A DNA stretch of 64,000 nucleotides from Haloplasma contractile SSD-17B (GTDB lineage: Bacteria > Bacillota_I > Bacilli_A > Haloplasmatales > Haloplasmataceae), in assembly GCF_000215935.2 (NCBI RefSeq), contig NZ_AFNU02000011.1, forward strand, positions 1-64,000, written 5' to 3'. The notes beneath the pieces were generated by a model. The model did no database searches. It was not told the origin of the DNA and was given only the letters and a program-made list of their open reading frames with translations. Shown here one piece after another: positions 4,034-18,438 of this stretch (positions within the stretch are counted from its first letter, which is position 1; each line of letters opens with the position of its first letter). Made by a program: the position numbers and the translations under genes.

Positions 4034-4831
4034 CTAACCTAATTTAAAAATTAGTCTCAGAATTTTTTCCGATAACTTTCCTGGTATCATTTTATGTAGA
4101 AATGTGATTAATACTGCATTCTTTCCTACAGCATAAAACGGAGCAGGATTTTTTTGTTTAATAATTTTCATCATTTTTTTTGCTACATTACAAGGATTCG
4201 TACCATTAGAGATTCGAGCATCTCTTATATTCTTTACATTTGTAAAATCTTCAATATAACTTGATTTTTTTGAACAAATCTTTTCTTGTCTTATGTCTGT
4301 TTTAATATAAGAAGGAGCGACTGTTACAAGATTTACTCCGTATTTATAAACTTCATGTCTCATTCCACGAGTTAACGTTTCTAATGCTGCTTTACATGAA
4401 GCATAGACCGAAGAGAAAGGAACTGGCGTTTGACTAGCCAAGGATGTAATATTAATAATCGTCCCTTCACCTTGTGAACGCATAACAGGCAAAACCCCTT
4501 TAATGAGCATAACTTGACCAAAGAATAATAAGTCATAAAGTTTTCTTAATTTTTCCATCGATACTTCTTCAACAGGACCCATCTGACTTTCTCCAGCATT
4601 GTTTATTAACACATCTATAGAGTTAATACCCTTTAGAAGATTATCTATACTTTCAGTATCATATAAATCAAGAGATACGTAGTTTACGCCGGGGATTTTG
4701 TTTTTTAATCCTTCAGGATTACGGGATGTTCCAATTACACTGTATCCTTCTTTAACAAGTACTTTTGCAATAGCTTTTCCTATTCCTCTTGAAGCTCCTG
4801 TGACTAATGCAACTTTCTTTCTATCTTCCAT
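4034..4831 (-). CDS. Short-chain dehydrogenase/reductase, possible 3-ketosphinganine-type reductase
   Basis: A 265-residue classical SDR. Visible are the nucleotide-binding TGASRGIG (11-18), NNAG (77-80), catalytic Ser130, and Tyr143-x3-Lys147. The C-terminal tail (residues about 240-265) is hydrophobic and basic, as in membrane-associated SDRs acting on lipids. Its ATG overlaps the stop of the upstream oxoamine synthase by one base (TAATG), a sign of translational coupling. Since that enzyme makes a 2-amino-ketone, the plausible substrate is this ketone, which would be reduced to an amino alcohol, as 3-ketodihydrosphingosine reductase does. The SDR family is certain; the substrate is inference from the operon. 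Confidence 0.85.
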   Translation of the reverse strand: MEDRKKVALVTGASRGIGKAIAKVLVKEGYSVIGTSRNPEGLKNKIPGVNYVSLDLYDTESIDNLLKGINSIDVLINNAGESQMGPVEEVSMEKLRKLYDLLFFGQVMLIKGVLPVMRSQGEGTIINITSLASQTPVPFSSVYASCKAALETLTRGMRHEVYKYGVNLVTVAPSYIKTDIRQEKICSKKSSYIEDFTNVKNIRDARISNGTNPCNVAKKMMKIIKQKNPAPFYAVGKNAVLITFLHKMIPGKLSEKILRLIFKLG

Positions 4832-17408: not shown

Positions 17409-17670
17409 GTGAATATAGCATGGCAACTGCTCTAACACTTGAGAAATGGAATAATCCCAATAAATATTCCAGAAATGCGTTGAAAAATGACTTTATACCT
17501 TATGCGAAACAATCAAAACAATTAACAGACATTACCTAGTTTTATACACAGGACAATCTAGAGTTCATAAAGATATTTAAATATAATATCCAGTAAATTT
17601 TATATTTCCATTTTTAGTTGTTAAACAAAAAAGAGGGTATAACCCTCTAATAGACAATTTATTATTCATT

Positions 17671-18438
17671 TTAACTTTGTGTAGTTCCTGGAATAACGCA
17701 ACCTTCTGGACCACAAACTTGATCTCCTTTTAATTGCGCTTCTTCACTCTTTTCTTTTTCTAACTGTTTTTGTTGCCATTCTGTATCAATAGTTGGTGAA
17801 AACTTCTCAGGGTAACGTATATACCAACGTTGTTTTCTTATTAAGAAATTCTCTGTATCTAGTAATAAGGCTTCATCCAATTCCTTTAATGCTGCTTCTT
17901 TCTTACCATTTTGGGAATATTCCATTCCCAACTTAAATTTAGTTTGTGCAAGTTGTTTTTCAAGTTCGCTCGATGAATCTGAAGCGTTATAATATTGATC
18001 ACCAAGTTCCACTTTTTCTACTTCATTAAAAATTAACTTTCGAACAGCTTCAACATGTTCTTCATTTGCAACTGAAAATCCTTGCTTAATGAGGCGTATG
18101 ACTCCTTCTTTATCAATAAAGATTCCATTAGGAACAATTTTAAATCCAAATAAATTTGCAAATTTATTTTCTGAATCTATAACAGTGGTGAATGGCTTAT
18201 CTTGTGCATACGGTTTTACAACTTCCGCGCCCTGAATATCAACGGATACAGATAAAATTTCAAAATCAGCCTCTTTATATTTTTTATAAAAATCCTGCCA
18301 CCCTGGCAGTTGCTCCCTACAACGTCACCAAGAAGCCCACATAAATATTAATGTATTCTTACCACGGAAATCTTTTAAGGATACAGTGTTTCCGTTCAAA
18401 TCAGAAAGTTCAATGTTTTGAATTTTCTGTAGTAGCAT
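17671..18438 (-). CDS. TlpA-like thioredoxin with in-frame TGA at the catalytic Cys (candidate selenoprotein, or nonsense pseudogene)
   Basis: Read from the ATG at 18438, which has AAAGGTG upstream, the frame is open for 255 codons except one TGA at 18325-18327 (codon 38). Around it the protein reads WASW-TGA-RCREQLPGW, where TlpA/ResA-type thiol oxidoreductases have WASWCxxCREQLP. The first redox Cys is thus replaced by UGA. Only one residue separates it from the remaining Cys40; the family norm is two. Downstream the thioredoxin fold is intact (ILSVSVDI, GFKIVPNGIFIDKEG), then a TPR-like helical stretch and a C-terminal CGPEGC. Fifteen bases after UGA is a 6-bp hairpin with a GGG loop (18295-18309), as bacterial SECIS elements have. 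The fragment after the stop (17671-18012) lacks its own ribosome site. Either Sec is inserted or the gene is broken. Confidence 0.6.
18295..18309 (-). promoter_or_regulatory. SECIS-like hairpin after the in-frame TGA
   Basis: CTGCCA-GGG-TGGCAG forms a perfect 6-bp stem with a G-led three-base loop. It starts 15 bases after the TGA, with the loop 21 bases away, inside the usual range for bacterial SECIS elements. The codons making it (CTG, GGG, CAG) are GC-rich choices in this AT-rich genome, which suggests selection on RNA structure. It may still be coincidence. Confidence 0.45.

Follow-up and report, generated by a model that had tools for sequence, protein, structure and literature searches.

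ResA, StoA and TlpA, which share the thioredoxin fold, act outside the membrane. A selenocysteine (Sec, U) separated by a single residue from a cysteine (U-x-C) is known from catalogued UGC-type selenoproteins, and a 2026 catalogue of 119 families contains an entry for UGC-containing TlpA and no family with the layout described here (PMC13188914). A 2006 survey counted three selenoproteins in Bacillales, whose names are not given in the passage concerned, and some members of the family that we describe may have been noticed earlier under the UGC heading.

An in-frame TGA in a thioredoxin-like gene

The window, by which we mean the whole stretch of DNA analyzed, spans the opening 64 kb of contig C11 of the Haloplasma contractile genome (3.40 Mb, 34 contigs). 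On its minus strand, the frame 18438-17671 comprises 255 codons and is interrupted before its terminal stop by just one in-frame TGA (codon 38), as a preliminary description of this DNA had reported, and the active site of the product reads WASW-U-R-C. We consider the TGA at 18325-18327 almost certainly a conserved selenocysteine codon and not a product of decay, and we put the probability that selenocysteine is inserted at codon 38 of this thioredoxin-like gene, making its product a selenoprotein, at roughly 95%. The features of the locus are as follows.

17671-18438, minus strand: putative selenoprotein gene, ResA-like thioredoxin fold with TPR-like helices and a Cys tail (frame, homologues and structural model)
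18325-18327, minus strand: TGA, codon 38, almost certainly read as selenocysteine (TGA in 34/34 distinct genes compared and in all further copies covering the site)
18319-18321, minus strand: Cys40, putative partner of Sec38 in the U-x-C site (invariant in the alignment)
18295-18309, minus strand: SECIS-like hairpin CUGCC-AGGGU-GGCAG (paired in 34/34, with covariation and synonymous constraint)
18127-18132, minus strand: Pro103-Asn104 (both invariant in the alignment)
17698-17715, minus strand: tail CGPEGC with Cys242 and Cys247, predicted to be disordered (conserved in the alignment, low pLDDT)
17632-17648, minus strand: intrinsic-terminator-like hairpin 3' of the gene, AGAGGGT-TAT-ACCCTCT followed by TTTTTG (from the sequence)

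The host genome encodes a tRNA-Sec (selC) on contig C2 (67.2 bits, anticodon tca), a SelB that scores 325 bits, above the curated cut-off, and SelA and SelD beside selC and selB. We read the host's other selenoproteins from the stretch around this sel cluster, where SelD (CGGGUAAKVG), GrdA (ECFVUTAAGAM) and GrdB (UGTCTRCG) each have an in-frame TGA that, read through, puts Sec at the position canonical for the respective family. It is therefore very probable that H. contractile makes canonical proteins with selenocysteine. The preliminary description had held against its own proposal that no selA, selB, selC or selD was in view, which is true of the 64-kb window but not of the genome, where the whole-genome search that it suggested finds all four, including the selB and selC whose absence it had regarded as decisive. 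The region (G000:C2:292000-311000, L017) forms one cluster of glycine-reductase-type genes (GrdA and GrdB with TGA), trxA, trxB, selB, selA, selD and selC.

Conservation of the TGA and of the hairpin that follows it

A scan of 84,980 species genomes recovered 7 full-length homologues, 69 to 81% identical, in Aquibacillus, Cytobacillus, Bacillus and Litchfieldia, with TGA at codon 38 in 7/7; the Cys-demanding pattern IFMWASWC found no Cys relative among the same genomes, these patterns requiring an exact match. By profile search the family is present in 31 of 397 genomes of the Aquibacillus order, with TGA at the site in each full-length copy, and 5 further carriers came from 280 sampled genomes of the class, while among 392 genomes of its phylum H. 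contractile was the sole carrier. The total is thus ∼41 genomes (∼40 Bacilli beyond the host), and TGA stands at this codon in every copy that extends over the site. The aligned homologues are 56 to 81% identical and share the motif WxSW-U-[RK]-C; no Cys form of the family was found across the ∼41 carrier genomes, nor a Cys or Trp codon at the site in any relative. The alignment at codon 38 suggested in the preliminary description accordingly gives UGA throughout and Cys in no copy, and the combination of CxxC relatives with a decayed gene, which it had envisaged as the contrary outcome, is not what we see: all close relatives have TGA, and dN/dS downstream of it is low.

Two apparent exceptions dissolved on inspection. 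A copy in G820 seemed to lack the TGA, which sits just upstream of an assembly gap, and an extra TAG in the G318 copy disappeared when the locus was read, its frame being intact. A weak TGA match in G124 (L118) was rejected, because the protein there is ResA-like with CPPC and the TGA after it is an ordinary stop.

Several loci deserve separate mention. In Bacillus sp. FJAT-27251 (L053) a second in-frame TGA (4100-4102) replaces the conserved Trp34 codon, 12 bases 5' of the Sec codon and ∼33 bases from the hairpin loop, and may encode another Sec, or else reflect a recent nonsense mutation or a sequencing error. The second copy in G423 (L114), FVWGSWURCRDQLP, is divergent; it retains the UGA and the hairpin but is devoid of the CGPEGC tail. 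Apparent gene remnants occur in Alkalihalobacillus deserti (L055, 4001-4066, a 22-residue match) and in G152 (L115, ∼2472-2816, the C-terminal piece only), with selB still in both genomes. The minus strand of the latter locus also encodes a small thioredoxin, probably a Sec-thioredoxin, in which an in-frame TGA takes the place of the first redox Cys (ADWUPGCKQ).

SelB is encoded in 179 of the 397 genomes of the Aquibacillus order, and all 31 family carriers are among these 179 (hypergeometric p = 4e-12, a value that is overstated in treating related genomes as independent). SelB and tRNA-Sec both score above the cut-offs in all 8 named genomes of the first scan.

Downstream of the TGA, the minus strand carries the hairpin CTGCCAGGGTGGCAG (18309-18295), which begins 15 bases after the TGA, where the preliminary description had placed a SECIS-like element. 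In the H. contractile sequence an A-U pair extends the stem to 6 pairs, leaving a GGG loop. The evidence from this one sequence is only moderate (the 61-nt stretch with the hairpin folds at -13 kcal/mol, z = -2.55, with 2 of 200 shuffles as good) and becomes strong through conservation. The five-pair stem forms standard pairs in 170/170 cells across 34 distinct sequences, 4 of which are compensatory, CUG..CAG having become UUG..CAA in three sequences and CUU..GAG in one with pairing kept; this covariation score was reached by 0/500 shuffles, slid versions of the stem score well below it, and a further copy in G156 (L112) retains the stem through another change. Codon choice within the stem is constrained as well: CTG encodes Leu+6 in 28 of 34 sequences against 4.0 expected, and CAG encodes Gln+10 in 30 of 33 against 12.7 expected. 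Of the three codons called unusual in the preliminary description, CTG and CAG hold up under this comparison but GGG does not, the Gly codon in the hairpin being unconstrained.

The bacterial SECIS model calls for an upper stem of 4 to 16 bp, an apical loop of 3 to 9 nt with G in the first two loop positions, a distance of 16 to 37 nt from the UGA and an MFE of at most -7.5 (PMC13188914). The hairpin at this locus has a stem of 5 to 6 bp and a loop of 3 to 5 nt with a leading G, 20 to 21 nt from the UGA; its MFE is -13 kcal/mol in the window stretch and -7.85 when the consensus is folded. Rfam scans of the gene returned no SECIS family and no other RNA family. Owing to the T-rich stretch behind it, the hairpin (18295-18309, minus strand) is additionally scored as terminator-like, and automatic annotation is likely to be misled by it.

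Constraint at the protein level persists past the TGA, with dN/dS downstream of it of 0.03 to 0.24, a range in which many dS values are saturated, and of 0.03 to 0.10 in four close pairs with unsaturated dS. An ordinary nonsense mutation in a pseudogene would account for a single stop within a redox gene, and apparent remnants of this family exist (L055; L115 in G152), but a pseudogene would hardly share its TGA with every homologue covering the site, stay under strong constraint on both sides of that TGA, keep a covarying hairpin and belong to a family strictly linked to SelB, and we give this explanation practically no weight. Readthrough without selenium, whether the codon is read as Trp, Cys or some other standard residue or is skipped, deserves slightly more attention, since UGA followed by C is a leaky stop context and C follows the UGA here and in most homologues. 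It is nevertheless highly improbable: the family occurs exclusively with SelB, the hairpin at SECIS distance is under selection, the UGA sits at the catalytic Cys position of the fold, canonical selenoproteins are encoded in the same genome, and no relative has a Cys or Trp codon at the site. The original proposal of a UGA-decoded selenocysteine in a TlpA-like thioredoxin is thus supported by the machinery, the shared TGA, the low downstream dN/dS and the covarying hairpin.

Predicted fold, possible function and origin

When codon 38 is translated, the product has AhpC-TSA as its best Pfam match and also matches Redoxin. An AlphaFold2 model built from 33 sequences (mean pLDDT, 87.7) consists of a thioredoxin fold (residues 1 to 136), helices (158 to 208) that match designed TPR proteins in a profile search, a long helix (219 to 238) and a disordered tail (239 to 255, pLDDT under 50). 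Among solved structures, Foldseek places ResA (1st9, TM-score to target of 0.85) and DsbE-type oxidoreductases closest, with Bcp and AhpC2 at lower rank, and the Sec occupies the redox-active position of the ResA-type fold. Sec38, Cys40 and Cys247 do not vary across the alignment, and Cys242 is almost as constant (absent in one member, L108); Pro103 is likely the cis-Pro of the thioredoxin fold, judging from the model. The spacing is U-x-C in all members, in place of CxxC or UxxC. Read by eye, the sequence opens directly with the initial strands of the fold, ahead of which we see no signal peptide or membrane anchor, and the 255-residue selenoprotein is probably cytoplasmic.

We propose that SelB with Sec-tRNA(Sec) would recognize the hairpin after the UGA and direct selenocysteine to codon 38. 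By analogy with thioredoxin-fold proteins, Sec38 would then attack the substrate and Cys40 would resolve the intermediate via an Se-S bond, while the tail Cys pair, the thioredoxin system or both might recycle the Sec-x-Cys site; for the CGPEGC tail, it is conservation that suggests such a part, and the missing Cys242 of L108 and the missing tail of the divergent L114 speak against it. A thiol-disulfide oxidoreductase acting by selenol-based reduction is the role we somewhat favor. The alternative of a peroxiredoxin-like peroxidase is less likely but a genuine contender, given that AhpC-TSA is the best Pfam match, that Bcp and AhpC2 appear in the Foldseek results and that the UGC relatives are catalogued as Prx-like. 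The peroxiredoxin motif PxxxTxxC/U is absent, however, with TLIFMWASW preceding Sec38 where a peroxidase would show PxxxTxxU (PMC13188914), and both WASW and the invariant Pro103 resemble those of ResA/TlpA, the nearest solved folds being of the ResA and DsbE types. Within the oxidoreductase reading, a more speculative and rather doubtful extension is that this is a selenium-dependent redox family with no viable Cys form, whose own C-terminal Cys pair recycles the Sec-x-Cys site, and so a self-contained selenol relay and not the Sec version of an ordinary thioredoxin-like protein.

The H. contractile protein groups among Bacillaceae sequences, nearest to that of Aquibacillus albus (81%), in a tree in which its exact position is unsupported. 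The gene is absent from all 7 other genomes of the host's family that we examined, 4 of which encode SelB. Such a pattern could arise if a Bacillaceae genome had contaminated the assembly, and the reported contamination of 2.24% lends this some color, yet UvrB on the same contig is 75 to 79% identical to same-family genomes versus 73 to 75% to Bacillaceae, and the GC content of the gene (0.339) is close to that of the window (0.320) and the sel region (0.335), so that we regard contamination as quite improbable. With UvrB nearest to its own family the contig looks native, which makes transfer from Bacillaceae the likely source, and the gene was probably acquired from that group. No viral contigs with relatives were found, and plasmid matches were all under 60% identity, with none covering 80% of the query. 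There is no conserved gene neighborhood, most flanking genes being common only to two Cytobacillus oceanisediminis strains, and no conserved neighbor that points to a substrate; together with the terminator-like hairpin 3' of the gene, this makes it seem a stand-alone unit.

Genes with an in-frame TGA are prone to annotation as broken or truncated, so that a conserved selenoprotein family of Bacillaceae may have been concealed. Selenoproteins are rarely retained by aerobic bacteria (PMC13188914), in contrast to the frequency of selB in the sampled genomes of the Aquibacillus order (179/397), where Sec decoding looks common; the present gene, in 31 of these genomes, is one candidate for keeping the trait and cannot explain the rest. 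Widespread Cys homologues gave rise to many of the redox selenoproteins (PMC13188914), and a family for which no Cys form was found makes the question of why selenium, and not sulfur, is used testable by a Sec38Cys exchange.

Comparison with known systems

No family library that we searched recognizes this selenoprotein family. The nearest entry is NF041054 (WAxxUGC_long, ResA-like WAxxUGC motif-containing protein), with which the H. contractile protein shares a WAxxU-x-C site at equal spacing and a thioredoxin fold followed by a C-terminal helical part. The whole-protein score is 120 bits against a curated cut-off of 300, the Gly between U and C is replaced by Arg (or Lys) in this family, the N-terminal extension of ∼110 residues is missing, and the CGPEGC tail belongs to this family and not to NF041054. 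Long-form relatives with the motif WASWUGC occur beside the short form in G259 (L116) and G327 (L117), score 268 to 292 bits and carry the same SECIS hairpin, and one of them aligns to the H. contractile protein over 218 residues (28%); the cut-off of 300 may be too strict for Bacillaceae. Because of the below-cut-off score, the hairpin shared with the long-form relatives and this alignment, we place the gene, on sequence grounds, in a family beside NF041054 with which it would share U-x-C and SECIS. Of the earlier assignment to TlpA-like proteins, the thioredoxin fold is retained, but we place the protein, which looks cytoplasmic, beside NF041054 and not in TlpA/ResA proper. ResA, StoA and TlpA have the same fold and a W-C-type active-site environment but use CxxC, where the present family has U-x-C and a C-terminal extension, and the H. 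contractile protein begins directly with the fold, no signal peptide being visible by eye. Thioredoxin selenoproteins of bacteria (UxxC) likewise have Sec in place of the first redox Cys and differ in spacing and architecture. The UGC-containing TlpA/Prx-like selenoproteins (PMC2398784; PMC13188914) have UGC where this family has U-R/K-C; the likeness lies in fold class and U-x-C spacing. The preliminary description had described that spacing correctly and had counted it against selenocysteine, whereas it is a trait of the family and recurs in the catalogued UGC selenoproteins. Our verdict from these comparisons is that the gene represents a putative new subfamily of a known selenoprotein type, spread through Bacillaceae.
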